From the NCBI RefSeq assembly GCF_014697475.1, contig NZ_JACJRV010000029.1, positions 1-64,000 of the forward strand: a stretch of 64,000 nt of DNA. The letters are read 5' to 3'. A program made the position numbers and the translations under genes. Below the pieces are notes generated by a model. The model was not told where the DNA came from. It made no database searches and saw nothing but the letters and a program-made list of their open reading frames with translations. Of the stretch, positions 25,482 to 64,000 are shown piece after piece. The stretch's first letter is position 1. Each line of letters starts with the position of its first letter. The DNA comes from Nostoc sp. FACHB-152. Lineage in GTDB: Bacteria; Cyanobacteriota; Cyanobacteriia; Cyanobacteriales; Nostocaceae.

Positions 25482-25534
25482 ATATAGATATTTGGCAAGA
25501 TTTTGGCGAAATTATATTTATCATCATGCCGTAT

Positions 25535-26221: not shown

Positions 26222-26223
26222 TC

Positions 26224-27342: not shown

Positions 27343-28297
27343 AGCTTGGTTAACCTTTACATACCCAAAAATTACTGACCTACTTCTACTGCCCAATAGT
27401 ACAAGTCAACACCTAAATATGTAGAGATGGTATTTGATTTTTGACAAAAATCAGTATATAGCTAGTTACCTTCTTTACTGTTTTTTCTCTATCTACTCAG
27501 GTGTATCTGGTAATCAAACCGGGTTCCTATACGCTAAATCAATTGACATAATTACACGAGATTACGCCAATAAAAGTAAATTGAATACCTACCTCTTGCT
27601 GACAGTTATCTAAGTCGTCACCACTAACCAAATTTGCGCTAATCTACTGATTGCAGTCATTAGTTTTGGTATGGCTAAAAATTACTAGTTAATAGCTACC
27701 AATTAAATACACTACGGCTATTAGCAATTTCTCATGAGATAGAATAAATTTATTCTAAAAAAATAATTTCATTTTTTATTCAATTGAAAATATAGAGAAC
27801 TTTGTTGATTGCAGAAGTAAGTGCGTAGGCAGAGATTACACAACAGTAAGAAGGTAAGTTTCAAGTTACTGAATCTTTTCAAAAATCAAATAAGTTTCCT
27901 ATATTGATTTTGAGCTTTCCAGTAAGCAGGTACAATTACTATTGTAAGTATACTGATGACTAGTTATAAACACAACAGTATTAATTGCTGAAAACTGAAG
28001 ATTATAAGAAAATATACAATGCTAATCATAGCAGCCAATAAAGAATAGACTCAAAAGCTGCTTGCTATTAGACTTTTATATGTAAGTTATAATTTATTCA
28101 GTAATTGTTATAAAACTCAAAAGTGTAAATTATTAAAAATAAAATTAAATTTATATGAACAATAGTTAAATTTGATGAAATATTTTTCCAATTAAATATT
28201 TTTAATCTTAATAAAATCTTAAATAGTTGGTGATTATTTATAGCGCGATCGCTTCATCTCCTGGAGTAGTAATATTCAAAAAATCTAGATTGATAGC
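27343..28297. other. Long AT-rich intergenic region with dispersed motifs
   Basis: About 950 bases without a convincing gene on either strand. I see two copies of an AATCAAA...TCCTATA motif (27511-27532 and 27883-27904) also present at 55244-55265 and 55352-55373, and one HIP1 octamer near 28243. The kinase promoter should lie at its left end. No RNA gene is recognisable. Confidence 0.5.
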
Positions 28298-35386: not shown

Positions 35387-35417
35387 GATGATTCTCCCGA
35401 TGCCCAAGCAGTAGATA

Positions 35418-38554: not shown

Positions 38555-41500
38555 ATGCCAATTATTCAATCACTATTGGGTAGTCAAGGGAATCCACTTG
38601 GGCAAAAATCCTATCTTGGATATCAGCACAATATATCTTCACAATCAAACACTAACTCCCTGCATTATCGAAATAGCAATTTTATTAAACCTTTAGTTAC
38701 AACAAAACCAATTTTTCAACCATCTAAATTTTTATTAGCCCGTAAACGTCACCCCTTTATAGATACACTAATTACAGATGGAGATAACTTTGGAATTCCA
38801 GAGATCGATTCTGATTTGCCAGCAATAGAATTAGACAAATCTAATTCTATTGCACAGGCAAATATTCCCGATGGAGGAACAAAGATAAAATTTGATATTA
38901 GCAAGATGTCAAATTTATTACAAACTCAAATAGCAAGTAATTTAGATAATAAGATATTAACTGAAAAATCTTCTCAAATAACAGCACCAAAAAATACAGC
39001 TAAAACTAAAAAATCATCACAATCAAAATCGGTTCACAAACCCAAAGCCCAAAAATCACCCAAGTCATATAATTCTCAAAGAAAAACAAAAATTATTGAT
39101 AAAATTTCTAATAATAGTGATGGTAATTTATTAACTACAGATGGTTTGTACAGCGAAATAGATAATACCTCAACAATACAACCACTTAATTTAAATAATA
39201 GTGCGATCGCTATTAATCCAACCGAGACTATAATTAGTGATTCAGAAGATAACTTATCCTTGCTTAGAAAGTTGAATAGTGATAAATCATCAGTAATTAC
39301 TGATTTACCATCTAATTCAACCGATATTTTATCTGATGTTGCTCATGCTGACAAAGAGGAAATATTAAATCAAAATAGTGAACCATATATTGATAGCAGT
39401 AATCTAATAGAAGATAAAATCTTAGAACTTGAATCATATCAGAATAGCCAAGATATTAATACAATAGATGAATTTTCTAATCAGCCCCAAGCACTAGATA
39501 ATGAAACACAGCTAGATAATGATCCTTTCATTAATCCTGGGTATTCAAAAAACAATGAATATCCAAATTTTACGCAGCCAGATGCTTTAAGAGAACCTAA
39601 TAAAATTTCACCATTATCAATTTCTCCCAAAACAGAATCACATCTATTTTATAGTCATAGCAATATAGATGAAGTTCCTGAAGAATCATCAAACACAGTC
39701 TTGGAAACAAACCAAGATTCTTCATCATCAAGTAATACCAATAATAGTAGTTTACTAGAAACGGAACCTTTAGTTTCAGAAATTATCTCGCCTAAGCTTG
39801 AGAATATACCAAATTCATCTAATTATTTAGATAATACTCAGGAACAACCGATGATTTATGATATAAATTATTTTGACAACAAAGCTAACTCTGTAGATGA
39901 GGTTATTGCGTTAGATACCAAAAAAAATATTATTAATATCCCAAAAACACAATCTATAAATACTGAAGATATTGAATTAAAGTCAACATCACCTATTATT
40001 GACAGCCAAACTAATTTATTCATAACGCGTGAAGAAGTTAGTACACCAAAACCAAAAAGAGTTACACCTGATATCACATCGACAGATTCATCAGATATTC
40101 AGGAAGATAACATCATACAAGCAACGACTATTCACCCAGAAATTCAATCCTCTATATCATCACAGGAAAATCTCGCACCGTTAATTACGATTCAACCTGA
40201 CACTACATCACCAGCAGCACAAGAGATTGAAGATACTAATACATTAGAATTAACAGCAGTTACACCTGTTACTAATTCACCCATATCCCCACAATCTGAG
40301 GAAGAATATACACCAGAATTAACTACAATTCAACCTGATACCACCTCAAGCACAGCACCAAATATTGAAGATATTCACACAAAAGAATTAGCTACAATTA
40401 CGCCTGATATATCACCTATATCACCGCAATTAGAGGCAGAATCTACACCAGAATTCACTGCAATTCAACTTGATACTATATCAAACACATCACCAGAAAT
40501 TGAAAATCAAAACACAGCAGGATTAACAGCAATCACGCCTGCTAGTACATCATTCATATCACCACAGTCTGACGAAGAATCTACACTGGAATTAACTAAG
40601 ATTCAAGCTGACGCTACCTTAATCACATCACCAGAAATTGAAAATCAAAACATAGCAGAATTAACAGCAATTACGCCTGTTGCTACATCTCCCCTATCAC
40701 CTCCATTGGCGGAAGAATATACACCAGAATTAACTAAGATTCAAGCTGATACAACCTCAAATACATCACCAAATATTGAAGATATTCATCCAAAAAAATT
40801 AGCAGCAATTACGCCTGCTAGTACATCATCCATATCACCACAATCTGAGCAAAACTCTACACCAAATTCAAATATAGTTAACTCAGAGACTGCTGATATA
40901 TCATTAAAAAATATCACTGAAGCTGAGAATTTGGCGACTTTCAGCAAGATGATAGAAAATGAACAACCAATTCAATCAGATGCAAGTTTAGCAATTAATA
41001 ATTTTGAACTGTCCAACTTTGTACCTAATTTTAATACATCAGAAAACACATCTCCTCCAGACAATGTAGATAATACTTCCAGCATTGACATTGAGCCAGC
41101 ACCTATCTTAAATAATTTACCAGCACCTAAAGGTTATGCTACTGGTGGTCATGTTACCGCAACCTCAGTAGAAAATCATCAACCAGTAGCACCCTCTGAT
41201 ACTGTACCTGCAATGCTGACACCTGGAGAATTTGTGATTAATGCTAAAGATGCACAAAAAAATCTCCAGATACTCCAGCATATCAACACCGGAGGTTCAG
41301 CCGAGGAGATGATATCTCCTAGTTTTGAGGAAAGTTATCTTCAAACCCCGGAAGCCAGGAATTTGCTAGAACATACGACTAAAGTCGATTCTTTTTTAGA
41401 GACTCCATTACAACGCCAAACTGCTGAACCTGATATATCTACAGAACCGACTCCTATAAGTTCGCCTTCTTTGGGTATGGAAATTGGGAAGCAAAGGCGA

Positions 41501-42025
41501 TCGCTACTTAACCCTCCACAAATTAATATGGTGGAAGAAACAACAAATATTTCTGATCAATCTTCACCACATTATTCTTCACCTTCCCTGATTTTCCGTA
41601 AGACTAATTCAACTACTAACACTCACACCCCCTCTCAATGGTCAAGTGTTGAAGAATTATTAAATGGTAGTAATGATGAATTTACTAACTTTAACTTCGG
41701 CGGCGTAGAAAATAATTGGCAAAATAGCCCATCTTCTCAGTTTGCATCATCTTCCACATCAACACAGATTTTGACTAAGCGACTTCCTACACCTCAAGGT
41801 TTTGCTAATGGAGGTGAAGTAATAGCACCCGATATATCACGAGACATTGCACCCATCACCGAAACTATACAAAGCCCATTATCATCTTCAGCAACAGAAA
41901 ATAATGATGATCATGATGATGAAAAAATTGAAGCTTTAGCCCAAGCAATTTATTACAGGTTAAGGCAAAGAATCGAACTCGAAAGGGAGCGTCAAGGAAT
42001 ATATGTAGGTCGCTTACCTTGGTAA
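38555..42025 (+). CDS. Tape-measure protein with long disordered repeat region
   Basis: A 1156-residue protein rich in Ser, Thr, Asn, Ile and Glu. Residues 100-540 look disordered. Residues about 545-775 hold five degenerate 44-46-residue repeats ('TTSxTSPxIEDxxxxEL'). Residues 860-905 have the tape-measure signature: 'GYATGGHV', then 'DTVPAMLTPGEFVINAKDA'. A second 'GFANGGEV' lies near 1083. The end is a charged helix, 'IYYRLRQRIELERERQG'. Tape measures set tube length. At about 0.15 nm per helical residue it would span roughly 170 nm, which is a rule of thumb only. No hydrophobic segment typical of many phage tape measures is seen. Confidence 0.72.
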   Translation: MPIIQSLLGSQGNPLGQKSYLGYQHNISSQSNTNSLHYRNSNFIKPLVTTKPIFQPSKFLLARKRHPFIDTLITDGDNFGIPEIDSDLPAIELDKSNSIAQANIPDGGTKIKFDISKMSNLLQTQIASNLDNKILTEKSSQITAPKNTAKTKKSSQSKSVHKPKAQKSPKSYNSQRKTKIIDKISNNSDGNLLTTDGLYSEIDNTSTIQPLNLNNSAIAINPTETIISDSEDNLSLLRKLNSDKSSVITDLPSNSTDILSDVAHADKEEILNQNSEPYIDSSNLIEDKILELESYQNSQDINTIDEFSNQPQALDNETQLDNDPFINPGYSKNNEYPNFTQPDALREPNKISPLSISPKTESHLFYSHSNIDEVPEESSNTVLETNQDSSSSSNTNNSSLLETEPLVSEIISPKLENIPNSSNYLDNTQEQPMIYDINYFDNKANSVDEVIALDTKKNIINIPKTQSINTEDIELKSTSPIIDSQTNLFITREEVSTPKPKRVTPDITSTDSSDIQEDNIIQATTIHPEIQSSISSQENLAPLITIQPDTTSPAAQEIEDTNTLELTAVTPVTNSPISPQSEEEYTPELTTIQPDTTSSTAPNIEDIHTKELATITPDISPISPQLEAESTPEFTAIQLDTISNTSPEIENQNTAGLTAITPASTSFISPQSDEESTLELTKIQADATLITSPEIENQNIAELTAITPVATSPLSPPLAEEYTPELTKIQADTTSNTSPNIEDIHPKKLAAITPASTSSISPQSEQNSTPNSNIVNSETADISLKNITEAENLATFSKMIENEQPIQSDASLAINNFELSNFVPNFNTSENTSPPDNVDNTSSIDIEPAPILNNLPAPKGYATGGHVTATSVENHQPVAPSDTVPAMLTPGEFVINAKDAQKNLQILQHINTGGSAEEMISPSFEESYLQTPEARNLLEHTTKVDSFLETPLQRQTAEPDISTEPTPISSPSLGMEIGKQRRSLLNPPQINMVEETTNISDQSSPHYSSPSLIFRKTNSTTNTHTPSQWSSVEELLNGSNDEFTNFNFGGVENNWQNSPSSQFASSSTSTQILTKRLPTPQGFANGGEVIAPDISRDIAPITETIQSPLSSSATENNDDHDDEKIEALAQAIYYRLRQRIELERERQGIYVGRLPW
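40189..40870 (+). repeat. Five degenerate in-frame repeats in the tape-measure gene
   Basis: Units begin near 40189, 40321-40327, 40459, 40597 and 40735 with the ATTCAAxCTGAxxCTA core, about 132-138 bases apart. Each encodes an I-Q-x-D-T-T-S...P-E-I-E...L-T-A-I-T-P module. Length change by one unit would change the encoded rod by about 45 residues. Confidence 0.75.
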
Positions 42026-51738: not shown

Positions 51739-53727
51739 TCAAACCCAACCGCCGATTTCTGCTTCTGTCAGCGATTTCTCTAACTTGGCATATTCTGTAC
51801 GCGCTGCTCGTAATAAATGTTTCATTTGTACTGCTTCTTCGGCATCAGCAGCAAGGAAGGCAGCATTTAAGGCTATGTTGCGAATATTACCCCCTGCTAC
51901 ACTTAATTGTGATAACTTCTTCGCATCTAAGCCATCAGTAGGAGTGTTAGTTGGGTAAACGCGCCGCCAAATTTCGGCGCGTTGCGCTGCATCAGGGAAG
52001 GGAAACTGCACTACAAAACGAATGCGTCGTTGAAAAGCTGTATCTATGGAACTCTTGAGGTTGGTTGTCATAATTGCCAAGCCGGGATAGCTTTCCATTC
52101 TTTGCAATAGATAGCTCACTTCGATGTTGGCGTAACGGTCATGGCTATCTTTAACTTCGCTACGTTTACCAAATAAAGCGTCTGCTTCGTCAAATAACAA
52201 GATAACTCCACCTTCTTCGGCAGCATCAAATACCCGACGCAGGTTTTTTTCAGTTTCTCCAATATATTTACTAACTACTGATGACAAATCAATTCTGTAT
52301 AGGTCAAGGTGCAATTCCTGGGCTAAGACTTCCGCCGCTAGGGTCTTACCTGTACCACTAGACCCAGCAAATAAGGCACTAATCCCTAACCCACGGCTAT
52401 TTTTCGCAGCAAATCCCCAATTTTGATACACAGTAGCGCGTTGACGCACATGAGCGGCAATTTCTCGCAACATTTCTGCTTGGGCTGGGGGTAATACTAA
52501 ATCCTCCCAGGTGGCGGTGGGGGGAATGCGTTGGGCTAGTTCATCTAAGTGAGGACGGGCTTGCTTACGACAAGCATCCCAGATGATTTGACCTACATCT
52601 TGTTCCTGTCCTGTAGTTAATTGTCCTAAAGCTTCTGCACAAGCAGCACGAATAGTGTTGGGGCTGAGGTTGAATTGAGTGGCTAATTTTTTCACTTGCC
52701 CATTTAATTGGGGCTGTATTTGGGCTAAACTGCTTTGCCAGAGTAAGCTTTGCTCTTCAATGGTGGGTTTGTGAATATCAAAACTGACTATAGGGCGTTG
52801 TTGTATTGATACTCTTTCTCGACTAGTGACAAACACTAAACCTTTGATGCGTTCGAGAAAACGTCCAATAGTATGTGTACGAGCTAAATCTGTCAGGTCA
52901 ATTTTGTCACAGTCTATTAGTAAAGCACTGTTACTTAAAATCGACTCTCGCTCCCACAGCCGTGAGAGGGTTTCCATCTCTGCGGGTGCAGATGGCACAA
53001 CTTGAACTGGCATAATGTGTAGTGTCACACCTAGCATTTTACAGACTGTGGTGGCGATCGCTCGCTTACTTGTCGGCTCGATGCCACATAGCTGTAAGAT
53101 AGGTAACTTTTCTGTCTGGGATGACTGCATCCAGACGGCGGCTATTTGCTCGGCTATTTGCTGTTGGGAGTGGACTAATTCTCCTACTTCTGGTACAGGT
53201 TCGACAATTCCTGTTAGTCTTTCATCAATGTATTGTCTACCAATCAAATAGTGTAAGATTCGCTCATCAATCCGTAGAGGGCTAAGAGTTAAAGCTCTAC
53301 CCTCACCTAACTCAATTAACCGCCAATATCGTAATTTAGCATCAGGAGCGATCGCATCCCAATGGGGATTAGGCAACGCGGCTAGAGCTAAACTTAAACT
53401 CGGATATGCTCTTTGTGTGTCTCCCTGAGCTAAACCACATAAAGCTGCAAAATCGCCATAAAACTCCATACAGGCGCACATCAGTAGTATATCCCTCTCA
53501 AACTGGGATAACCCGAATAGCTGACATATCCGCTCTAATAACGGTGGTGCTGTCATAGCCGCCATTGCAGCTTGTAAAGCTTGTTGTTTGTCCTGTTGTG
53601 CTTGAGATGTAGATGGCTGCGTTTTGTGTGCATATCTTTCAATCACATCACGTACCATACCTAAAGCAGCTAATAAGTAGCGTTCATTGGCCTCATGCCA
53701 ATTGTGATTAACTGTTGTCGCATTCAT
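51739..53727 (-). CDS. eCIS AAA+ ATPase (Pvc15-like)
   Basis: A 662-residue protein with a degenerate first half and a C-terminal AAA+ module: Walker A 'GSSGTGKT' (455-462), Walker B 'VILLFDEAD' (508-516), sensor 'MTTNLKSS' and arginine finger 'AFQRRIRF' (564-571). The eCIS ATPase is needed for assembly or cargo loading in related systems. Its start overlaps the stop of the DUF4255 gene by four bases (ATGA), so the two are coupled. Confidence 0.93.
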   Translation of the reverse strand: MNATTVNHNWHEANERYLLAALGMVRDVIERYAHKTQPSTSQAQQDKQQALQAAMAAMTAPPLLERICQLFGLSQFERDILLMCACMEFYGDFAALCGLAQGDTQRAYPSLSLALAALPNPHWDAIAPDAKLRYWRLIELGEGRALTLSPLRIDERILHYLIGRQYIDERLTGIVEPVPEVGELVHSQQQIAEQIAAVWMQSSQTEKLPILQLCGIEPTSKRAIATTVCKMLGVTLHIMPVQVVPSAPAEMETLSRLWERESILSNSALLIDCDKIDLTDLARTHTIGRFLERIKGLVFVTSRERVSIQQRPIVSFDIHKPTIEEQSLLWQSSLAQIQPQLNGQVKKLATQFNLSPNTIRAACAEALGQLTTGQEQDVGQIIWDACRKQARPHLDELAQRIPPTATWEDLVLPPAQAEMLREIAAHVRQRATVYQNWGFAAKNSRGLGISALFAGSSGTGKTLAAEVLAQELHLDLYRIDLSSVVSKYIGETEKNLRRVFDAAEEGGVILLFDEADALFGKRSEVKDSHDRYANIEVSYLLQRMESYPGLAIMTTNLKSSIDTAFQRRIRFVVQFPFPDAAQRAEIWRRVYPTNTPTDGLDAKKLSQLSVAGGNIRNIALNAAFLAADAEEAVQMKHLLRAARTEYAKLEKSLTEAEIGGWV

Positions 53728-54998
53728 GGAATTGTTACCTGTGGCGAATGGTACTCACCTGCTGGATTTGTTTCTAATGGACTAGCTGCACCGTCTACCT
53801 GTACTCTGACAAGATAAGTTCCTGGTTTGATATTTTTTGCAGTAATACTCATCACGTCTGTATCTGCTTGAGGTGACGGCACAACAATAGATTGGGCTAA
53901 AGTATGAGGACTAGATATTTCATTAAGTAGCAAAATTACTCGTTGGGTTTTAGCAAGTTTGGGATAAAACTTAACAGAGATTTCTACTGAACGGAAATCT
54001 GCGGTACTCTCTACCACCTGATGCGATATTACTAAAATTTTGGGATGTATAATCAAAGCCGCTACATTAGATATTAAATTTTCTTTGTGTCCGGCATTAG
54101 CCATAGTTAAATGCACAACTTGTATAGGTTGCACTCCGGCAGACAAATCATCTGGTAACTTCAAGCTAATTTGCGTTTCTTTAATATCTTCGGGTACTAA
54201 TAGTTTTTCATTATGACCCAATCGAATACGGGTGATTTCACCGCGCAAGCGTTTACCGCGAATGATGACTATGCTACCTGCAAAAATTAAGGGCTGTGTC
54301 TGTTTTAGTGCTGTAACTTGCTCAATACTTGGTTCACTCCAAAGTCCTGTGTAACCATCTTCTGATTGATTTACGTTTTGACTATCAATTAATACCATCG
54401 AAACCTGATAACTAGCTGATGGTCGATAATGGGTTTGTAAGGCAGACCAGACTTTAGAATTGTCTTCCATGCTCAAAAATTCTGGCGAAAGTTTAATCTG
54501 CCCAATTTGTTCAGCCAACTTAGATATAGATACGCCAGCTAAAGCTTGTGAGAGACTGGTAGTATTGCTTTTTGAGGCGTTTTTTAAGGCATTTTCGATG
54601 AGTTCCGAGGTGATAACCGTGTTGGTGTGCAGTAATTGCATAGCATAACCTAGCAGCAGTTCTGCCTGGAAATCTTTAGCCCCATAAGCGGTTAATAAAT
54701 AGTGTAAGTCTAAAGCTAGTGGTGGATTTAGAGAACGTTGACTTTTATTAACTTGTGAGTGCTTGTTCCGCAAATCTTGAGATACCCAATCAACGTTGCG
54801 ATTCTGCGTCACATGATAGAGAAAGAAGTTGAGTTGCGCCCGCTCATCAGTTCCCACTTTAATTACGTCAGGTGGTAAGGCTGTAACCATAACATCACCA
54901 ACGCTGGCAGTAATAGAGTCATTAACTAAACCATTTTCTAGCAAATCTTTTAGCACTGCTGTCACAGCAACTATAGAAAGCGCGTTACTCATCATCAT
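53724..54998 (-). CDS. DUF4255 cap/terminator protein with Ig-like C-terminus (Pvc16-like)
   Basis: A 424-residue protein. Residues 1-200 are DUF4255 ('ALSIVAVTAVLKDLLENGL', 'ERAQLNFFLYHVTQNRNVDW', 'LALDLHYLLTAYG'), the tail-terminator family of eCIS. The rest has Ig/IPT-like strands ('PLIFAGSIVIIRGKRLRGEI', 'VISHQVVEST'), unlike the shorter paralogue at 58012. Translated together with the ATPase. Confidence 0.9.
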   Translation of the reverse strand: MMMSNALSIVAVTAVLKDLLENGLVNDSITASVGDVMVTALPPDVIKVGTDERAQLNFFLYHVTQNRNVDWVSQDLRNKHSQVNKSQRSLNPPLALDLHYLLTAYGAKDFQAELLLGYAMQLLHTNTVITSELIENALKNASKSNTTSLSQALAGVSISKLAEQIGQIKLSPEFLSMEDNSKVWSALQTHYRPSASYQVSMVLIDSQNVNQSEDGYTGLWSEPSIEQVTALKQTQPLIFAGSIVIIRGKRLRGEITRIRLGHNEKLLVPEDIKETQISLKLPDDLSAGVQPIQVVHLTMANAGHKENLISNVAALIIHPKILVISHQVVESTADFRSVEISVKFYPKLAKTQRVILLLNEISSPHTLAQSIVVPSPQADTDVMSITAKNIKPGTYLVRVQVDGAASPLETNPAGEYHSPQVTIP

Positions 54999-55599: not shown

Positions 55600-57603
55600 A
55601 TGAACTCCCAACCTTCTTCAAATTATTGGAATGGACACTATATAGGTGAGAATCAGCGATACCGAATAGAAAAACCTTTGGCTGCTGGTGGTATGGGAGA
55701 AGTCTTATTGGCGACCGATACCCGTATTGGTCAGCAGGTGGTGTTGAAATTACTCAAAGATACTCTGGTAGCATCCCAAGAAATGAGAAAACGCTTTGAA
55801 CGCGAGGTGGCAGTTTGTGCAGCGTTACAGAGTGACCATATTGTCAGAATTAGTGATTGCGGGGTGACTCCAGAAGGATATCCATTTTATGTAATGGAAT
55901 ATTTGCGCGGTCAAACATTGCGACAATTATTGCTGCGCGAACGGCGATTATCTGTGGAACGAACGGGGAAAATTATCTCTCAAGTTTGTCAGGGTTTACA
56001 GATGGCGCATCAAGGGGTGACTTTGCAAAAAGATGGAGGCCATGAACATATTCGGGTAATCCATCGTGACCTAAAACCAGACAATATCTTCCTGGTGCCT
56101 ACAGATTTGGGAGAGTGGGTGAAGATTTTAGATTTTGGTGTCGCTAAAATCCGGAATGATTCTTCTGAACAGACAAATATAACTAGTACTTTTATCGGCA
56201 CATTTCGCTATGCTGCACCTGAGCAGATCCAAAACAAGCAAAATCTAGATGCTAGGGCAGATATTTATAGTTTAGGAATCATTCTGTATGAAATGTTAAG
56301 TGGAGCAGATCCTTTTGGGTTCAGCACTAAGGGTAGTAATGTTAGTGAGGCTTCTTGGGTTTTAGCCCATGCCTATGAACCACCGACACCTTTGCGATCG
56401 CAACCCGGATGTGAGCAATTATCATCTGAAATAGAAGCGGTAGTATTAAAATGTCTACACAAAAACCCCGATAATCGCTTTGCATCGGTAGCCGAACTAA
56501 ATCTAGCTTTGCAAACAGCAGCCCGTCTCGCTACAGCAAGTAACGCCACTGCACAGCCTGAACAAAATTTGGCTCACCCACAACCTAATTTCGGTCAGGA
56601 AACAGTTCTCCGACCACTACAGCCAGCCCAACCAGAATCACCTGTATATAATCAAAATTTAAATAACGAAACAGTTCCGCGACCACTACAGCCAGCCCAA
56701 CCAGAACCCCCTGTATACAATCAAGCTTTAAATAACGAAACAGTTCCGCGACCACTACAGCCAGTCCAACCAGAACTACCTGAAGGGACAATTTTTCAAC
56801 TACGTCCTTCAGCAAGTTCGGCTGGAAATAACGATACAGTTCCCCGCCCGCTACAGCCCTCAGAACCAGACCAACCTGAGGGGACAATCATGCAACTACG
56901 TCCTTCAGCTAGTCCTGGTGGGAATAACGACACAGTTCCCCGTCCGCTACAGCCCTCAGAACCAGACAAGCCTGAGGGAACAATCATGCAACTACGTCCT
57001 TCAGCTAGTCCTGGTGGGAATAACGACACAGTTCCCCGTCCGCTACAGCCCTCAGAACCAGACAAACCTGAAGGGACAATTTTCCAACTACGTCCTTCAG
57101 CTAGTCCTGGTGGGAATAACGAAACAGTTCCCCGACCACTACAGCCCTCAGAACCCGACAAACCTGAAGGGACAATTTTCCAACTACGTCCTTCAGCAAG
57201 TTCGGCGGGGAATAATGACACCGTTCCCCGCCCACTACAGCCACCCCAACCCGACCAACCTGAGGGAACAATCTTACAAATACGTTCTTCATCTAAGCCA
57301 GAATCTCATCAAAACTCCGCAAATTGGCAAAATAACAATCAGCCAACTAGCAATCCGGAAAATACGCTATATCAGCAAAGACCTACTGATTATCAAAGTA
57401 TAAATAACACACAAGATAACACCATATTTCAACCAAGAACACACAAAGTAGTTGAATCAAAAAATGCTCCTATTTTTGGACGAAATCTTTGGGTTGGGAT
57501 AGCAGTTGTCCTAGCTTTTTTTGCAGGAATGTTAATCTTTCAGTTACAAAGCAATCAGAGTTCTCAAGATCAGCCTAGTGTACAGGACTCAAGCCAAAAT
57601 TAG
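55600..57603 (+). CDS. eCIS-linked membrane Ser/Thr kinase with Thr-motif repeat tail
   Basis: A 667-residue Hanks-type kinase. The glycine loop is 'LAAGGMGEV', the ATP lysine is in 'VVLKLL', the catalytic loop is 'HRDLKPDNIFL' (from 155) and 'DFGVAKI' starts at 178. The domain ends near 300. Residues 335-615 are Pro/Gln-rich repeats with 16 threonine motifs: eight 'TVPRPLQP'-like, six 'GTIFQLRP'-like, and 'NTLYQQRP' and 'NTIFQPRT'. One membrane helix lies at about 629-649 with a short outer tail. The repeat tail is therefore on the kinase side and may be self-phosphorylated. It is encoded at the head of the sheath operon and near an FHA gene, pointing to control of eCIS assembly or firing. 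Confidence 0.9.
   Translation: MNSQPSSNYWNGHYIGENQRYRIEKPLAAGGMGEVLLATDTRIGQQVVLKLLKDTLVASQEMRKRFEREVAVCAALQSDHIVRISDCGVTPEGYPFYVMEYLRGQTLRQLLLRERRLSVERTGKIISQVCQGLQMAHQGVTLQKDGGHEHIRVIHRDLKPDNIFLVPTDLGEWVKILDFGVAKIRNDSSEQTNITSTFIGTFRYAAPEQIQNKQNLDARADIYSLGIILYEMLSGADPFGFSTKGSNVSEASWVLAHAYEPPTPLRSQPGCEQLSSEIEAVVLKCLHKNPDNRFASVAELNLALQTAARLATASNATAQPEQNLAHPQPNFGQETVLRPLQPAQPESPVYNQNLNNETVPRPLQPAQPEPPVYNQALNNETVPRPLQPVQPELPEGTIFQLRPSASSAGNNDTVPRPLQPSEPDQPEGTIMQLRPSASPGGNNDTVPRPLQPSEPDKPEGTIMQLRPSASPGGNNDTVPRPLQPSEPDKPEGTIFQLRPSASPGGNNETVPRPLQPSEPDKPEGTIFQLRPSASSAGNNDTVPRPLQPPQPDQPEGTILQIRSSSKPESHQNSANWQNNNQPTSNPENTLYQQRPTDYQSINNTQDNTIFQPRTHKVVESKNAPIFGRNLWVGIAVVLAFFAGMLIFQLQSNQSSQDQPSVQDSSQN
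56782..57260 (+). repeat. 96-bp tandem repeats in the kinase tail
   Basis: Five consecutive units 96 bases long, near-identical (for example GGGACAATCATGCAACTACG), encode the 32-residue module E-G-T-I-x-Q-L-R-P...D-T-V-P-R-P-L-Q-P. Older, shorter versions precede them from 56599. Confidence 0.9.
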
Positions 57604-58011
57604 AGGCTAGGGGCTAGATAGGAGATGTGAGGAATGGCTATAGACTGTAACCTATGAGCAAAACAGGGTTAGTGGTGCTTGGTGTGGGGGGAGCAAGCTG
57701 TGTTTTGTACACCCTGCCCCAATACGATTCGGATTAAGCATTTTGAACTCAGAATTGGTTTGGGGAAAAGGTTAAAGGGTAAGGGTTAAAGGTTTTTTCT
57801 TCCCCTTTCCCCTTCGCCTTTCCCCTTTAACCGAACCTTATTGCACCCTGCCGTAGCCAACTGGAAGCCGCCACTGATTTTTCCCTACACCCTACACCCA
57901 ACCCCCCACACCCTTCTTCTTGACTAAATTATCGACAAAAGTCTAATTACCTTTAAATGGTGAGTCCAGATATTCTAGATGCATCTGGATTAATACCAGC
58001 CTCACACTTTC
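57604..58011. other. Intergenic region carrying dispersed repeat copy 2
   Basis: 408 bases without a gene. 57758-57844 is the inverted copy of the 6396-6482 repeat. 57921-57948 contains TCGACAAAAGTCTAATT, related to the 14-mer at 37705 and 45077 in opposite orientation, 64 bases before the next start codon. Confidence 0.6.
57758..57844 (+). repeat. 87-bp dispersed repeat, copy 2
   Basis: Reverse complement of 6396-6482 with about two mismatches. See that entry. Confidence 0.8.
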
Positions 58012-58851
58012 ATGCTTATCTCTGTTGTTCAAACATTAGCAGAAATTCTAGCTGGAGGAACTTCACTTACCAGTACTGAGCAAATTGACTTTAATCATCC
58101 TAGCCATCGCAGGGAAGAGGGTGCAGGCCCGACGCTTAACTTGTATGTTTACGACTTACGCGAGAGTAAACAAATACAGCATTCCGGTAGGCAAGTGGAA
58201 CGCAAGTTGAACAACAGTCTGCAACCTTCAACGGTCAATTGGTCACCTAGTTGGTTTGATGTCTCTATATTATTAACAGCTTGGGATAGAACTGCTTTAG
58301 GCGAGCATCACTTGTTAAGTGAAGCTTTGAATGTGTTGTTACGTCATCGGTCTTTGCAAGAGGATTTTTTAGTTCCAGAATTGCGGGGTTATGGCAATTT
58401 GTCGATGACTGTTGCTCTTGATCCAACAATTGAGATCGGCTCTTTATGGAGTGCGCTCAATGTACCCTTACGGGCTGGTTTGTATTTGACGGTGACAATA
58501 CCCTTCGAGCCACAACCGCTTCCAGTTCCATTGGTGTCGGAAAGAATTTTCAATTTACAAAACCAATTTCATGCTAATGGTAATACCTCCGTTGCTACTA
58601 AACGAGTAGCGATCGCTGGAATTGTGAAAAGCGCAGTAGCTAACAGACCGTTGGTGGATGCAAGAGTCTCTGTCTTAACAACTGAAAAATCTGTAGTTAG
58701 CAATCAAGAAGGGCTGTTCTTTTTTGAAAATCTGCGTATAGGCAATTATGTTTTGACAGTCAATTGTCCTGGCTATTTATCCCAGAATGTCAATGTCTTG
58801 GTCGATAGTCAAGGTTATACCTTCAAAGAAATCTTATTAACTCCTGAATAA
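58012..58851 (+). CDS. DUF4255 protein with carboxypeptidase-regulatory-like domain
   Basis: A 279-residue protein. Residues 1-185 are DUF4255 ('SVVQTLAEILAGG', 'PTLNLYVYDLRESKQ', 'WFDVSILLTAWD', 'LLSEALNVLLRH'). Residues about 200-279 are a beta domain of the carboxypeptidase-regulatory type ('VAIAGIVKSAVANRPLVDARVS', split; 'GLFFFENLRIGNYVLTV'). It is a second terminator/cap-like protein, placed just before the sheath gene. Confidence 0.88.
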   Translation: MLISVVQTLAEILAGGTSLTSTEQIDFNHPSHRREEGAGPTLNLYVYDLRESKQIQHSGRQVERKLNNSLQPSTVNWSPSWFDVSILLTAWDRTALGEHHLLSEALNVLLRHRSLQEDFLVPELRGYGNLSMTVALDPTIEIGSLWSALNVPLRAGLYLTVTIPFEPQPLPVPLVSERIFNLQNQFHANGNTSVATKRVAIAGIVKSAVANRPLVDARVSVLTTEKSVVSNQEGLFFFENLRIGNYVLTVNCPGYLSQNVNVLVDSQGYTFKEILLTPE

Positions 58852-58866
58852 ATTTAGGTTGCTTTT

Positions 58867-60528
58867 ATGGCTAGACTTGATTACTTTGCCCCTGGTGTTT
58901 ATATAGAAGAAATTGACCGTGGGAGCCGACCAATCGAAGGTGTGAGTACGGCGATCGCTGGTTTTGTCGGTTTTACAGAAGACATTCGTGATGGGGCTGA
59001 GTTATTCAAGCCCATGTTAGTTACTAATTGGACGCAATATCTCAACTACTTTGCTCGTCCTAATTCGGATGGATTCACCGACTTTAACGCTTACTTACCT
59101 TTTTCTGTCTATGGCTATTTTATGAATGGTGGTGGTCGTTGTTGGGTCACTAGCATCGGTACTCAGTTACCCGGCGCACCCAAGCCACCAAATCCAGAAC
59201 CAGCCACTTTGAGAATTACTGGTAGAGGCAATCGTCCTGCACTACGTTTGACTTTACGCCCTGAACAAGCAGCAGGCGGAGCAGTCAATGTATTGATTAT
59301 CGATGGTGGGCCTCGTGCTTTACCAGAAGGGACAGAAGGGGAAGCCCCTCCTAACACGGGTGAGTATTTTACTGTGCAGATTCGTCGTGGAGATGAGGTG
59401 CTTGAACAGTACGAGAACTTAACCATGAATCGTGAAGCTCAAGCCCAAGTTGCAACTTATGCAGTCACTGCTTTGCGAAACTCTATGTATGTCATTGCAG
59501 AAGACGTTTCTCAAAGTGGACAGCCACTATCACGCCGTCCAACGAATGGTCAATACGAACTAGCACCACCGATTGTCCCGGCTTCAGTTGATAGATTGTA
59601 CAGCGACTTGGAAGGGGTACGTGATGATCGGACAGGGGTACGGGGGATTTTTGAAATTGATGAAATCACCATGCTGGCTTGTCCTGATTTAATGCGGGCA
59701 TATCAAGCAGATGTTTTAAACTTGGATCAAGTCCACGGCATCATGGAACTGATGATCAGTATGTGCGAAGGTTCAGCCAGTGGTGATATTCCCAATCCAC
59801 CTAACCGCATGGTTTTGCTTGATTCTCCTCCCGAATGTGCCAAACCCCAGCAGGTAGTGGAATGGTTGAATAGGTTTAACCGTCGTTCTATGTTTGCCGC
59901 CCTGTATTATCCTTGGATTAAAGTTGCTAATCCACGCGATCGCGGTAATCCGATTCTTATACCTCCCTGTGGACATATGATGGGAGTTTGGGCGCGTACC
60001 GATGAAACCAGAGGTGTCTACAAAGCCCCAGCCAATGAAGTACCTAGAGGCGTAATTGGTTTAGGTTACGAAACCAACTTCCGCGAACAAGAACTATTAA
60101 ACCCCTTGGGAATTAACTGTATTCGCACCTTCCCCAATCGTGGTATTCGCATTTGGGGTGCTAGAACCCTCGTTGAACCAGATAAAACCGAGTGGCGTTA
60201 TATCAGCGTCCGTCGATTGATTAGTTATATCGAAAAATCTATTGAACTAGGTACTCAGTGGGTAGTATTTGAACCCAACGACGAAGATTTATGGGCGCGT
60301 GTCAGACGTACTGTTAGTAACTTCCTAGAAAGAATTTGGCGGGAAGGCGCATTATTTGGTGCTAGTCCACAGCAAGCATTCTATGTGAAGTGCGACGAAG
60401 AACTCAATCCACCAGAAACTAGAATCTTAGGTCGTCTGTATATTGAAGTTGGAGTTTGTCCCGTTAGACCTGCGGAGTTTGTCATCTTCCGCGTTAGCCA
60501 ATGGAATGGCATCGAAGATGAACAGTAG
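58867..60528 (+). CDS. Contractile sheath protein (Pvc2-like)
   Basis: A 553-residue sheath protein. The N-terminus 'YFAPGVYIEEIDRGSRPIEGVSTAIAGFVG' (split) and C-terminal domain 'RRLISYIEKSIELGTQWVVFEPND', 'LWARVRRTVSNFLERIWREGAL', 'VGVCPVRPAEFVIFRVSQW' (split) are the classic phage-sheath features. A variable domain lies in the middle. A single sheath gene is seen, whereas PVC/Afp have several. Upstream of the tube genes. Confidence 0.96.
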   Translation: MARLDYFAPGVYIEEIDRGSRPIEGVSTAIAGFVGFTEDIRDGAELFKPMLVTNWTQYLNYFARPNSDGFTDFNAYLPFSVYGYFMNGGGRCWVTSIGTQLPGAPKPPNPEPATLRITGRGNRPALRLTLRPEQAAGGAVNVLIIDGGPRALPEGTEGEAPPNTGEYFTVQIRRGDEVLEQYENLTMNREAQAQVATYAVTALRNSMYVIAEDVSQSGQPLSRRPTNGQYELAPPIVPASVDRLYSDLEGVRDDRTGVRGIFEIDEITMLACPDLMRAYQADVLNLDQVHGIMELMISMCEGSASGDIPNPPNRMVLLDSPPECAKPQQVVEWLNRFNRRSMFAALYYPWIKVANPRDRGNPILIPPCGHMMGVWARTDETRGVYKAPANEVPRGVIGLGYETNFREQELLNPLGINCIRTFPNRGIRIWGARTLVEPDKTEWRYISVRRLISYIEKSIELGTQWVVFEPNDEDLWARVRRTVSNFLERIWREGALFGASPQQAFYVKCDEELNPPETRILGRLYIEVGVCPVRPAEFVIFRVSQWNGIEDEQ

Positions 60529-60583
60529 CAGAAGCAATCTTGAACTTTTTTCTCTCACTTATTGCACAGGAGTTTAAACCACT

Positions 60584-61039
60584 ATGCCAGGCGAATTTTT
60601 AACGGCGTGTAAATTTTACTTTGAAGCCGACGGAGTTACTGATAAATTTATCAAAGAGATTAGTGGATTAGGGGTTGAAAGCACACCAGCACAAGATGTA
60701 CATGGTTCATCTAAGTCTGGTAAAATCATGCGTCAAGCAACACCGACAGTTGTAAAATTTACAAATATTACACTTAAGGTTATAGCTACTGATGATGTAG
60801 ACCTGTACCAATGGTATCAAAAATGTAACGAAGATATGGGAGATCCCAGACAGTGGTCGCAAAATCGTAAAACTGGTTCCGTAGTTGCATACGACCAGCA
60901 AGGCAGTGAAAAAGCACGCTGGAACATTGTTAACTGTTATCCCTGTAAATATACTGGCCCTACCTTAACTGCATCTGGTGGAGATATGGCCAATGAAACT
61001 ATTGAGTTGGTTCACGAAGGCGTTAAACGTGTCAAATAA
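60584..61039 (+). CDS. eCIS tube protein
   Basis: A 151-residue T4 gp19-like tube protein: 'GEFLTACKFYFEADGVTDKFIKEISGLGVES' (split), 'FTNITLKVIATDD', 'LYQWYQKCNEDM', 'SVVAYDQQGSEKARWNIVNCYPCKYTGPTL' (split) and 'NETIELVHEGVKRV'. Its likely role is the main inner tube inside the sheath. ATG start, 55 bases after the sheath stop. Confidence 0.93.
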   Translation: MPGEFLTACKFYFEADGVTDKFIKEISGLGVESTPAQDVHGSSKSGKIMRQATPTVVKFTNITLKVIATDDVDLYQWYQKCNEDMGDPRQWSQNRKTGSVVAYDQQGSEKARWNIVNCYPCKYTGPTLTASGGDMANETIELVHEGVKRVK

Positions 61040-61062
61040 TTTAGTTTAAGCAGCAATTAACA

Positions 61063-61554
61063 GTGCCACAAACAGCAGGTCAAGTTCCAGAAATTCTCAC
61101 AGCCCATCGGTTCTACCTAGCTTTGACTCTAGATGGTCAACAAGATAATATTGATGGCTTCTTTTTGGAGTGTCAAGGCTTTAAAAGAACTCAAGATGCG
61201 ATTGAAATTGCTGAAGTCACCTCCAATAAATGGGGTAAATCAGATAAAGGTCAAGTCGTCAGAACCAAAATTCCCGGAAATATTAAGAGTGGTAATATCA
61301 CTCTCAAGAGAGGTATGACCAATTCTCTAACTATCTGGAAGTGGTTTGAAGCCGTTCAAGAAGGTAAATGGGCTGATCAACGTAAAAACGCTTCTTTGAG
61401 TATCTATGACCAAGCAGGCGTAGAACAAGCAAGATTTGAGTTAGCTGGTGCTTGGCCTGCTAGTTATAAAATAGCCGATTTCAGCGCTCGTAGTAGCGAC
61501 ATAGAAATCGAAGAAATCGAAGTTGCTTTCGAGGAATTTAAGCGGGTGAAATAG
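61063..61554 (+). CDS. eCIS tube protein
   Basis: A 163-residue tube paralogue: 'ILTAHRFYLALTLDGQQDNIDGFFLECQGF' (split), 'NITLKRGMTNSLTIWKWFEAVQEG' (split) and 'EEIEVAFEEFKRVK'. It starts with GTG and follows the previous tube gene by 23 bases. It is closer to the 38018 protein in having 'TLKRGMT' and 'WKW'. A second tube or adaptor layer. Confidence 0.92.
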   Translation: MPQTAGQVPEILTAHRFYLALTLDGQQDNIDGFFLECQGFKRTQDAIEIAEVTSNKWGKSDKGQVVRTKIPGNIKSGNITLKRGMTNSLTIWKWFEAVQEGKWADQRKNASLSIYDQAGVEQARFELAGAWPASYKIADFSARSSDIEIEEIEVAFEEFKRVK

Positions 61555-61641
61555 TCAGTTAACAGTTATCAGTTGACAGTTGTTAGTAGTTTTATTCTCA
61601 TCTGCTTCCTTGTCTTCCCCCTACTCCCCACTCTCCCAAAT

Positions 61642-61989
61642 ATGTTTCCCACAGAGTTTGAATTTACACTTCCTAAAGGTTATTTTGACTCAGAAGGTAA
61701 TCTTCACCGCCAAGGTGTCATGCGTTTATCAACAGCTATAGATGAGATTGCACCTATGCGTGATCCTCGTGTCAAAGCTAATCCTGCTTATGCCACAATT
61801 ATTATTTTGTCGCGTGTGATTACTCGTTTAGGCGCTTTATCTGAGGTGAGTCCAGCGATAGTAGAAAACTTTTTTGCCCAAGATTTAAATTATCTTCAAG
61901 ACTTTTACCGTCATATCAATGGCTTAGAAGCAGAAACTAACCTCCCAGAACAGAAGGTAAGTCCCTCTGAGCCACTTCTGCAAAATTAA
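61642..61989 (+). CDS. Small eCIS assembly protein, paralogue 1
   Basis: About 115 residues: 'TEFEFTLPKGYFDSEGNLHRQGVMRL' (split), 'RDPRVKANPAYATIIILSRVITRLGALSEVSP' (split) and 'YLQDFYRHING'. It is clearly paralogous to the 62168 protein. The layout resembles phage tail-assembly-chaperone-type proteins found after tube genes in eCIS. The frame is open from 61573, but ATG at 61642 marks the conserved start. Confidence 0.78.
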   Translation: MFPTEFEFTLPKGYFDSEGNLHRQGVMRLSTAIDEIAPMRDPRVKANPAYATIIILSRVITRLGALSEVSPAIVENFFAQDLNYLQDFYRHINGLEAETNLPEQKVSPSEPLLQN

Positions 61990-62167
61990 ATTAACTAGAT
62001 AATAACTACCTCAAAGCAGAAATATACAAACTGCTCCTTTATTTATGAATTTGGAATTTCAAACTAAACAAACTTATATCATTTCACGAAATAAATGATA
62101 CAAATAATTTCTCCTCTGCTCCCCTGCTGCCTATTTGTATCAAACTTAAAATGAAACGGTATTACCT

Positions 62168-62551
62168 ATGCCACGTAAACAGGATTATCTCTGGACTGAA
62201 TTTGACTTCACTCTGCCGCGAGGTTTGATTGATAGTCAAAACCATGTACATCGTCATGGCAAAATGCGCCTAGCAACGGCTAAAGATGAAATCTTGGTAC
62301 AAAAAGAACGCCAAGTGCAAGAAACTCCTGGTTACGGTGCTTTGGTCATGTTATCTCGTGTAATCACACGTTTAGGGAGTTTAAATTCTGTTAGCCCCAA
62401 TCTCCTTGAAGGACTACTTTTACATGACATTGCCTATTTAAGAGAATTTTACAATCGAATTAATCAGCAAGGTAATACACATATACCTACTTTGTGTCCC
62501 CACTGCAATACGCAGTTTTCTGTCGAATTAACCCTAGCGGGGGAGTCATAA
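62168..62551 (+). CDS. Small eCIS assembly protein, paralogue 2, with CxxC
   Basis: A 127-residue protein matching paralogue 1 over most of its length ('TEFDFTLPRGLIDSQNHVHRHGKMRL', 'LSRVITRLGSL', 'REFYNRIN', split), plus a C-terminal extension 'LCPHCNTQF' with one CxxC pair. The single pair could bind metal with a partner. Followed by an overlapping DUF6760-like gene. Confidence 0.8.
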   Translation: MPRKQDYLWTEFDFTLPRGLIDSQNHVHRHGKMRLATAKDEILVQKERQVQETPGYGALVMLSRVITRLGSLNSVSPNLLEGLLLHDIAYLREFYNRINQQGNTHIPTLCPHCNTQFSVELTLAGES

Positions 62552-62697
62552 GCTACCCCTCTGATACTTTATATGAGGAGGTAGCTTTTATTGCTTATCA
62601 TTTCCATTGGTCGCAAGATGATATTTTAAATTTAGAACACAATTACCGTCAGCGATGGGTAACAGAAATTAATAAAATTAACCAAAAATTAATATGA
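62494..62697 (+). CDS. DUF6760-like small eCIS protein
   Basis: The conserved part is 'GGVISYPSDTLYEEVAFIAYHFHWSQDDILNLEH' (split) and 'RQRWVTEINKIN', typical of small proteins in eCIS operons of cyanobacteria and actinobacteria. No ATG exists in frame. GTG at 62494 would overlap the previous gene by 58 bases; family similarity begins only at 62539, near a GGGGGAG that could be a ribosome site for a non-standard start. Its stop overlaps the next ATG (ATGA). Confidence 0.7.
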   Translation: MSPLQYAVFCRINPSGGVISYPSDTLYEEVAFIAYHFHWSQDDILNLEHNYRQRWVTEINKINQKLI

Positions 62698-64000
62698 AAG
62701 TCAAAATAACATATTTACCCGCACCAAATGAGGTAAATGAATTTGATTTAGTAGTAGCAACTACACCAAAAGGAGAGTGCGTCATCGGTCGTTCTCCTGA
62801 TTGTGACTTACCTCTAGAAAGCGCAGATGTTAGCCGTATACATGGTAAGTTTTTTGTTCAAGGTGGTAATTACTATTACTGTGATACTGGTAGTAGGAAT
62901 GGTTCAATAATTAATAATAAATTAGTCGAAAAACATCAGCCATATATTTTAAAGCATGGTGATTCTATTCAAATCGGAGATTACATTCTGCTGATGGAAG
63001 GGATTACACCTGCGGCTGAACAATTACCAGAAACAGTATTTAGAGTAATAGATCCTGCACTATTTTCTAGGCCAATATCAGACAATTTTAATGTTGCTAG
63101 CATTAGTAATGAAGCATCAGAGGTAGTTAACGAATCTACAAAAGAAGTTGTCAGCAAACCTGAAGAGGAAATTGCAGTCCCTGAAGTTCCAGCACCAGCA
63201 ATTGTTGATGCTGTCTCCTCAGAAAACCAAGAAATAATCACTGCATCTGAACCTCCAGTTGTAGGAGAAGTAACTTTTGTACAACCACAGGATATTACTA
63301 CTGAAGAACCAGACATAATTGGGAGTGACGAAAATCTAGATTTAAGTTCTGCAATTGCGGAAGAAAGAACCTTTGTGCAGCCTCGCGATCTAGCACAACC
63401 ATCACCATCAGTCAGTTATTTGTCTACAAGCGATGATAGTCAAGATGTAGATTTAGGTACAAACATTTTACAAGAATACACTATCGTACAGCCTCGTGAT
63501 TTGGCAATTCTAGAATCTCCAACTGGTAGTGATGAAAATGTAGAGGTGGTAACAGCTGAAGATAGTAATGTAGAAACCTCAGAAGTTGTTACAGAATCTA
63601 ATACAGTGACAGAAGACAACCCCACTGAAATAGAAGATTCTGTTAGCACACCGCCAGAAGATGTTTGTCATATAGATGCAGTAACAATAGAACCAAATAT
63701 TGAAGCATTCTCAGAATTGCAGACTGAAGCCGTAACCTTAGCTGAGGATAATATTCAGACTCAAAGCGAAGTTATAGAAGTTTCGCACAGCGACTCTAGT
63801 GATTTAAGTACTACTAGCCTAGAAGAAATAGGTGAGGAAGCAACAACCGCAGATGTGACTGCTAGTACAGAAACTGTAGAACCAGAAACCGCTATTTCTA
63901 CAGCAGAAGTAGGCGAGGAAGCAACAACCACAGATGTGACTGCTAGTACAGAAACTGTAGAACCAGAAACCGCTATTTCTACAGCAGAAGTAGACGAGGA
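62694..64000 (+). CDS. eCIS-linked FHA domain protein (3' partial)
   Basis: The frame opens at ATG 62694 and runs off the window (435 codons seen). The FHA domain is at about 20-105: 'CVIGRSPDC', 'VSRIHGKF', 'GSRNGSIINN', with the Arg, Ser and Asn residues that bind phosphothreonine. A long acidic, Ser/Thr/Glu-rich tail follows, with three threonine motifs: 'TFVQPQD' (Thr194), 'TFVQPRD' (Thr226) and 'TIVQPRD' (Thr263). They resemble the repeats in the eCIS kinase tail. From residue 381 come 27-residue tandem repeats. It overlaps the DUF6760-like gene by four bases. Confidence 0.9.
   Translation, partial: MKVKITYLPAPNEVNEFDLVVATTPKGECVIGRSPDCDLPLESADVSRIHGKFFVQGGNYYYCDTGSRNGSIINNKLVEKHQPYILKHGDSIQIGDYILLMEGITPAAEQLPETVFRVIDPALFSRPISDNFNVASISNEASEVVNESTKEVVSKPEEEIAVPEVPAPAIVDAVSSENQEIITASEPPVVGEVTFVQPQDITTEEPDIIGSDENLDLSSAIAEERTFVQPRDLAQPSPSVSYLSTSDDSQDVDLGTNILQEYTIVQPRDLAILESPTGSDENVEVVTAEDSNVETSEVVTESNTVTEDNPTEIEDSVSTPPEDVCHIDAVTIEPNIEAFSELQTEAVTLAEDNIQTQSEVIEVSHSDSSDLSTTSLEEIGEEATTADVTASTETVEPETAISTAEVGEEATTTDVTASTETVEPETAISTAEVDE
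63834..64000 (+). repeat. 81-bp tandem repeats in the FHA gene
   Basis: Copies start at 63834 and 63915 with very few differences, and a third begins at 63996 at the window edge. They encode a 27-residue E-E-A-T-T-x-D-V-T-A-S-T-E-T-V-E-P-E-T-A-I-S-T-A-E-V-x module. The array continues beyond the window. Confidence 0.9.

Follow-up and report, generated by a model that had tools for sequence, protein, structure and literature searches.

In the PpkA/Fha/PppA pathway of the type VI secretion system (T6SS), a membrane kinase and an FHA protein are encoded together with a contractile machine. According to excerpts of two reports, condensates of PpkA and Fha recruit T6SS parts in Acidovorax citrulli (PMC12607579), and Agrobacterium Fha binds phosphorylated Thr14 of TssL (PMC3953482). 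Here we describe a comparable arrangement at an extracellular contractile injection system (eCIS) of the cyanobacterium Nostoc sp. FACHB-152. The window, by which we mean the whole analysed stretch of 64,000 nucleotides (NZ_JACJRV010000029.1, positions 1 to 64,000), is part of contig C113 of an 8.6-Mb genome and holds an eCIS cluster with a Ser/Thr kinase and an FHA protein. Because this kinase and a likely phosphothreonine reader, both encoded with an eCIS, carry the same threonine motif many times, a T6SS-like but separate phosphorylation switch on an eCIS-type machine is likely.

Other FHA proteins offer further points of comparison. GarA and OdhI, the phosphoswitches that work with PknB and PknG, have a conserved threonine site beside the FHA domain that is read in cis, and they are the closest solved FHA domains to ours by sequence and fold. 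Our protein differs from them in that the site lies C-terminal of the FHA domain and more sites follow in a long linker; the OdhI model scores it at 38.4 bits against a cut-off of 200. Rv1747 of Mycobacterium tuberculosis, an ABC transporter, has FHA domains and kinase-marked linker threonines and forms condensates, and is not known to have a repeat-bearing kinase tail. What it would share with the system proposed here is an FHA domain plus a linker whose kinase-marked threonines give clustering.

As to eCIS themselves, the accessible part of a large survey (PMC8213781) describes regulators of transcription that kinases sometimes act on, and a word count of its main text did not return the word FHA. 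The thylakoid-anchored contractile injection system of Anabaena PCC 7120 is, from the part of its report available, a membrane-anchored cyanobacterial machine of the eCIS type (PMC8894136); by word count, kinase and FHA are both absent from the main text. Among the open-licence literature matches listed, there was no eCIS phosphothreonine switch and no kinase/FHA control of an eCIS. Post-translational control of eCIS assembly and firing seems largely open.

Results

The eCIS-associated Ser/Thr kinase of the window (55600..57603, + strand) has 667 aa, with a kinase domain at aa 21-295 (Pfam Pkinase, E 8e-46). A reading of this DNA made from the sequence alone (the sequence-only reading) had counted 16 copies of T-[VIL]-x-[QRL] in the tail between Thr335 and Thr608. 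Our recount of this repeat tail (aa 335-608; 56602..57423, +), which lies between the kinase domain and a C-terminal hydrophobic segment, gave the same number against 0.66 expected from shuffling aa 311-625; a 17th match, T106, lies inside the kinase domain. Pro, Leu or Arg, which had been said to follow the motif, does so in 14 of the 16 copies, the exceptions being T557 (TILQIR) and T589 (TLYQQR). The copies are underlain by DNA tandem repeats (56599..57295, +), one of 69 bp x 2.7 (56599-56782) and one of 96 bp x 5.9 (56731-57295). The 16 copies are therefore not independent events, and since some of them arose by tandem duplication, the motif was tested in relatives.

The partner gene begins at 62694 (62694..64000 in the window, +) and extends beyond the window end to contig position 64787, so that the full protein of 697 aa was taken from the genome contig. 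It consists of an FHA domain, a linker and an end with the fold of methylglyoxal synthase (MGS), and we call it FHA-MGS. The three linker threonines proposed earlier are exactly placed: T194 in TFVQPQD (TFVQP at 63273..63287, +), T226 in TFVQPRD (TFVQP at 63369..63383, +) and T263 in TIVQPRD (TIVQP at 63480..63494, +). A fourth site, missed in that reading, is T114 (ETVFR; TVFR at 63033..63044, +), directly after the FHA domain and outside the linker repeats; the linker also has a repeat array free of the motif. The claim that both proteins carry the same candidate site holds in a modified form. T-[VIL]-x-[QRL] is at chance in this linker (2 vs 1.2 expected), and since T194 and T226 are T-F, outside the T-[VIL] class, T-[VIFL]-x-[QR] describes the shared core better.

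Relatives were collected with a sheath scan that gave 80 named loci, to which another 20 with a sheath were added, most of which belong to other eCIS subtypes. After the sheath, 46 of the 80 named loci have an intact FHA-MGS gene; four others have one that is split over two frames (L091, L098) or truncated at a contig end (L023, L061), and these four were left out of the 48 distinct FHA-MGS proteins compared below. None was found in the fetched stretches of the 20 added loci. The 35 eCIS kinase sequences represent 34 genes (L134 and its cut copy L176). Because the window proteins were entered twice, the alignments have 49 FHA-MGS and 36 kinase rows for 48 and 35 distinct sequences; the FHA-MGS proteins of L047 and L048 are identical in their first 100 residues. 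In an early test of the motif the controls contained some genes twice and the L140 tail was cut wrongly; the enrichment set comprised 1662 distinct protein sequences, searched for T-[VIF]-x-[QR].

In this set the motif occurred 228 times in the 35 eCIS kinase sequences against 25.5 expected (8.9-fold; 223 vs 24.9 in the 34 genes) and 193 times in the 48 FHA-MGS proteins against 36.8 (5.3-fold). The corresponding figures were 406 vs 344.2 (1.2-fold) in 830 other proteins, 19 vs 65.0 in sheaths and 32 vs 29.4 in AAA proteins; small or effector-like groups were higher (5 vs 1.6 for w50294-like, n=5; 1 vs 0.3 for w45157-like, n=2; 33 vs 22.4 for w36365-like, n=41). The motif was rejected as a general feature of kinases (33 vs 40.9, 0.8-fold, in 48 other kinases) and of FHA proteins: the count of 17 vs 4.9 in 18 other FHA rows is inflated by five cut FHA-MGS genes, and the remaining 13 gave 3 vs 3.3. 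In the window's genome, T-[VIFL]-x-[QR] gave 15 vs 10.9 in 14 other FHA proteins and 107 vs 88.7 in 165 other proteins. The longer form TxxQPR behaved similarly, with 70 in the 35 kinases (20,707 aa) and 44 in the 48 FHA-MGS proteins (30,576 aa), compared to five in the 18 other FHA rows (five of which are cut FHA-MGS genes) and 14 in 1561 other proteins (630,848 aa).

A side effect of Pro/Gln-rich disorder was likewise rejected. Disordered windows of other proteins were near chance (69 vs 54.4, n=258; 44 vs 52.0, n=246, when the motif-rich L040, L076 and L092 are removed), as opposed to 162 vs 9.9 in 46 kinase windows and 71 vs 15.2 in 98 FHA-MGS windows; seven sampled from the window's own genome gave 2 vs 1.4. 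That the motif might be equally common in unrelated disordered tails had been named as a refutation; these counts do not show it.

Within the motif, both the residue and the spacing are specific. When each residue was tried at position 0, Thr stood out in the kinases (11.5-fold; Ser 0.72, runner-up His 1.4) and in the FHA linkers (5.6-fold; Ser 0.81, runner-up Phe 2.5). Without presupposing a motif, enrichment after Thr was seen in both families for Q or R at +3 and for R at +5. After similar tails had been thinned, +3 came first among ten spacings in 16 of 24 kinases and in 12 of 23 FHA linkers (binomial 3e-11 and 5e-7), and with lighter thinning in 21 of 29 and 19 of 34. FHA domains are phosphothreonine-specific and +3 is their recognition position, as stated in excerpts of PMC3953482. 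The repeat units vary by lineage and keep the core (TVPRPLQP, TIMQGSPS, TLFQPRPG and TIAQIPLA in kinases; TFVQPRD, TVVQVSD and TVIQLPQ in FHA linkers), which makes the copies more than mere duplications. Taken together, these results demonstrate a real threonine-specific linear motif that is strongly enriched in both families.

The active site of the window kinase is intact in the alignment, with K50, HRDLKPDN at 155-162 and DFG at 178-180, which makes it a Hanks-type kinase with its catalytic residues; the Lys and DFG are invariant across all 35 sequences. The residue after DFG is beta-branched in every one of them (Ile in 26, Val in 9), and the type of this residue is tied to threonine preference in yeast and human kinases, as reported in the available part of PMC3898841. 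The kinase type is therefore predicted to be Thr-selective. Beyond the kinase domain, a Pfam scan found no further domain in the window kinase. By hydropathy, aa 631-649 (57490..57546, +; mean 2.29) are a predicted C-terminal membrane segment, and a stretch of 19 residues with mean hydropathy of at least 1.9 follows the kinase domain in 26 of the 35 sequences, so judged by the same measure; the kinase is probably membrane-anchored at its C terminus. Tails with TIMQGSPS repeats are found in three kinases that read HRN (L059, L061, L091), and at L061 and L091 an HRD kinase adjoins the HRN kinase.

The FHA domain of the partner (62778..62978, +; Pfam FHA, E 1.1e-18) retains the GR, SR.H and N-G signature of a phosphothreonine pocket, R33, S47, R48, H50 and N69, all invariant in the 48 distinct FHA-MGS proteins. 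Its structure model has the standard FHA fold, closest to GarA/OdhI among solved FHA domains. The T114-V115 pair beside it is present in all 48 aligned proteins, outside repeats, with R at +3 in 38.

The MGS-fold domain makes up the last 130 aa and lies just beyond the window end (contig C113, 64395-64784; L017:2395-2784). It resembles MgsA in sequence and fold: the FHA-MGS paralogue encoded on contig C123 of the same genome matches solved methylglyoxal synthases at 1.4e-20 (phmmer against the PDB), and NCBIfam MgsA models match both FHA-MGS proteins of the genome at 2e-19 to 3e-23, below the curated cut-offs of both models. The AlphaFold model of the C123 domain (mean pLDDT 91.5, the predicted local confidence) superposes on methylglyoxal synthases at 0.9-1.6 A over about 120 residues in the first 14 Foldseek rows (2e-12), with a weaker match to the allosteric domain of carbamoyl-phosphate synthetase. 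In methylglyoxal synthase the Asp of GGDQ is catalytic; here 45 of the 48 proteins have Tyr in its place and the other 3 have Phe, and the FHA-MGS relatives also have an altered TGTTG phosphate loop. Enzymes of the methylglyoxal synthase fold are hexamers, and the fold binds phosphorylated ligands. Because the catalytic Asp is absent and the phosphate-binding loop changed, this end very likely serves binding or oligomerisation and is not an enzyme. An FHA gene that runs past the window and ends in an MGS fold lacking the catalytic Asp is new here, and no open-licence paper naming both 'methylglyoxal synthase' and 'FHA domain' was found.

Kinase and FHA-MGS are both linked to eCIS genes (sheath, tube, Pvc16 and AAA) and occur together. 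The family sample comprised 217 genomes: 84 have matches to both the kinase (cut-off 1e-85) and the MGS end (cut-off 1e-20; weakest match 8e-36), six match the kinase only, eight the MGS end only and 119 neither. In a sample of 386 genomes from the phylum, six contain a frame of more than 600 aa that matches the MGS end below 1e-38; all six are FHA-MGS fusions, and all six genomes are among the eight with the kinase. A close kinase relative was found in 18 of 19 genomes searched, even those without one within 10 kb of the sheath; the genome of L049 gave no match at 1e-60. The kinase/FHA-MGS eCIS belongs to one lineage of mostly filamentous cyanobacteria. Five genomes of one genus (L229-L233, genomes G474-G478), which have no kinase at 1e-85, carry FHA-MGS genes whose fetched surroundings contain none of the eCIS genes queried.

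Both genes had been placed in the sheath operon. They do share its strand and neighbourhood: the kinase is followed, after 408 bp, by genes for a Pvc16-type eCIS protein (58012..58851, +; Pfam Pvc16_N, E 7.3e-20), the contractile sheath (58867..60528, +; Phage_sheath_1C, E 1.2e-18), two tube proteins (60584-61039 and 61063-61554, +; Phage_T4_gp19, E 1.2e-34 and 1.9e-31), two small proteins without a Pfam match whose order relatives keep (61573-61989 and 62168-62551, +), and FHA-MGS. The gap qualifies this placement, as does the arrangement in relatives: of 19 regions with the kinase, 17 have it next to the second Pvc16 gene (Pvc16b) instead, with the AAA gene directly next in 10 of these 17. 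In the window, the divergent neighbour of the kinase is a Pvc16/DUF4255-type eCIS protein (53724..54998, -; Pvc16_N, E 1.3e-43; also identified by its neighbourhood in relatives), and next to that lies an eCIS AAA ATPase (51739..53727, -) that was named by reading its sequence and was matched beside the kinase in relatives. Promoter-like (19 vs 16.7) and terminator-like (4 vs 6.6) matches were within the shuffle range. The second eCIS of the genome, on C123, has a kinase and an FHA-MGS of its own, which are adjacent.

Elsewhere in the window, positions 22709-27396 (-) hold a second signalling block with an FHA protein (weak match to the T6SS FHA model), a LuxR-type response regulator, a histidine-kinase-type ATPase, and a PstS-like binding domain fused to a region with a weak kinase match. 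Two eCIS_core proteins are encoded at 30203-35407 and 36365-37591 (-); part of the larger one matches a DNA/RNA non-specific endonuclease domain. A block like that at 22709-27396 occurs at L092:2255-5702 (-), where a separate 232-aa protein with five T-[VI]-x-Q motifs adjoins the FHA gene and a gene reading like the kinase-like/PstS-like fusion. Another eCIS locus encodes an 834-aa repeat protein (L076:17787-20291, +), masked in part in its record, that contains seven T-[VI]-[AV]-Q motifs. In one species, the protein at the position of window 38555-42025 (L040:1-2769, -) has 21 TIIQPAFP-like motifs. The window 38555 protein was rejected as a general third carrier of the motif, since its five long counterparts, recognised by a C-terminal signature, gave 9 vs 10.0.

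Discussion

The sequence-only reading had proposed a phosphothreonine switch that controls eCIS assembly or firing. Its foundations, a threonine-specific motif on both proteins that relatives share, an intact FHA pocket and a kinase active site, are observed, as are the co-occurrence of the two genes and their linkage to eCIS genes; from them we infer phosphorylation, binding, oligomerisation, a membrane anchor and an effect on the machine. We consider it fairly probable that the kinase marks motif threonines on both proteins and that the FHA domain binds these marks, forming a phosphorylation-dependent hub that controls the eCIS. In such a scheme, a Thr-selective Hanks kinase would phosphorylate threonines of roughly the form [DE]-x-T-[VIFL]-x-[Q/R]-(P-R), some in its own tail and others in the linker of FHA-MGS. 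The FHA domain would bind the marked threonines, aided by the +3 residue, and marked kinase tails and marked FHA-MGS proteins would become cross-linked. The pseudo-MGS end probably makes FHA-MGS an oligomer and may sense a small phosphorylated metabolite. The resulting multivalent, phosphorylation-dependent hub at the membrane could hold or release eCIS parts, and so control assembly or firing as PpkA and Fha do in the T6SS.

Several observations weigh against this proposal. Pro at +1 of Thr is favoured in the FHA linkers only (300 vs 131) and not in the kinases, three of the 35 kinases have HRN instead of HRD, and three (L138, L142 and L185 at 3112) have no tail motif and one (L146) a single one. 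In the second eCIS of the genome, the FHA-MGS linker holds a single strict motif and its repeats read T-T-I-Q, and three proteins of other kinds (L040, L076, L092) are also motif-rich. The co-occurrence counts ignore shared descent, and not every MGS match behind them was checked for an FHA part. Genomes with the kinase only may keep the motif (five copies in G569; 11 in G491, which is 72% complete; two and one in the two kinases of G561) or have few or none (one in G460, two in G461, none in G019). The G019 kinase (L207), from a genome with no FHA-MGS match, is a close relative (84% in the kinase domain) and has an assembly gap in its gene; its readable tail has repeats such as DSVTQLLQP and no motif threonine. 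Conversely, one to four sites precede the MGS domain in the seven of eight FHA-MGS-only genomes looked at (G551 left out), and in five lone FHA-MGS genes of one genus T114-V115 is T-I or unmatched. The FHA model does not dock the T114 stretch confidently (pLDDT about 53 there). None of the genome's five PP2C_2 (PF13672) matches lies on C113 or C123, other phosphatase families not having been searched. Finally, excerpts on A. citrulli report that Fha T640A leaves Fha foci unaltered, so that clustering there is independent of that mark (PMC12607579).

We also consider, as a possibility that we regard as rather doubtful, a more elaborate arrangement. In it, a hexameric FHA-pseudo-MGS scaffold and a kinase bearing as many as 16 phosphothreonine sites would form a phospho-gated condensate that nucleates or restrains the eCIS, with the dead enzyme fold as a metabolite gate and an origin independent of the T6SS pathway.

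Among other explanations, the one that survives best keeps the motif as a phosphosite on kinase tail and FHA linker and assigns its reading to another FHA protein or domain, with FHA-MGS reading a third protein. The genome has 20 FHA matches, one of them in a second FHA protein (L019:1844-2809) that is encoded next to an eCIS AAA gene and has a TVVR of its own at T112, and the L040 and L092 proteins described above also speak for this explanation. The other FHA proteins are near chance for the motif, both in the set of 13 and in the 14 of the window's own genome, as are the five counterparts of the window 38555 protein, and we regard this explanation as unlikely. Somewhat less likely still is that the motif serves as a docking or substrate-recognition site for the kinase or the MGS-fold domain instead of an FHA-read phosphosite, and does no more than bring the kinase to its substrate. 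A motif common to two partners need not be phosphorylated, the Pro and Arg after the core could serve docking, and the MGS fold is one that takes phosphorylated ligands. Against this, neither Ser nor Val takes the place of Thr at position 0, which fits a phospho-acceptor with an FHA reader better, and the excerpts of PMC3953482 name +3 as an FHA recognition position. That the tails are ordinary low-complexity sequence, in which repeat expansion of Pro/Gln/Thr-rich linkers spread a motif without function, is very improbable: copies do fall within DNA tandem repeats, and a motif-free array is present in the FHA linker, but other disordered windows are near chance, repeat units that differ between lineages keep the core, and T114-V115 is invariant in 48 proteins outside repeats.

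We therefore return to the kinase as writer and FHA-MGS as reader. Compared with the T6SS pathway, the likeness lies in a kinase, here with a predicted membrane anchor, and an FHA protein encoded with a contractile machine. The differences are that the machine is an eCIS, that both partners carry many repeated motifs, that the FHA protein has an MGS-fold end, that no PP2C_2 match lies on the window contig, and that no Pfam domain follows the kinase domain. Because the T6SS Fha model TIGR03354 matches neither FHA-MGS protein at E 0.01 and no such phosphatase match lies in the cluster, the pair was not filed as a member of that pathway. A single motif here predicts the writer (the kinase), the reader (the FHA domain), precisely which threonines are involved and, through the pseudo-MGS fold, an input that may be metabolic. 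If the proposal is true, contractile machines of two classes would be under phosphothreonine control via different proteins.

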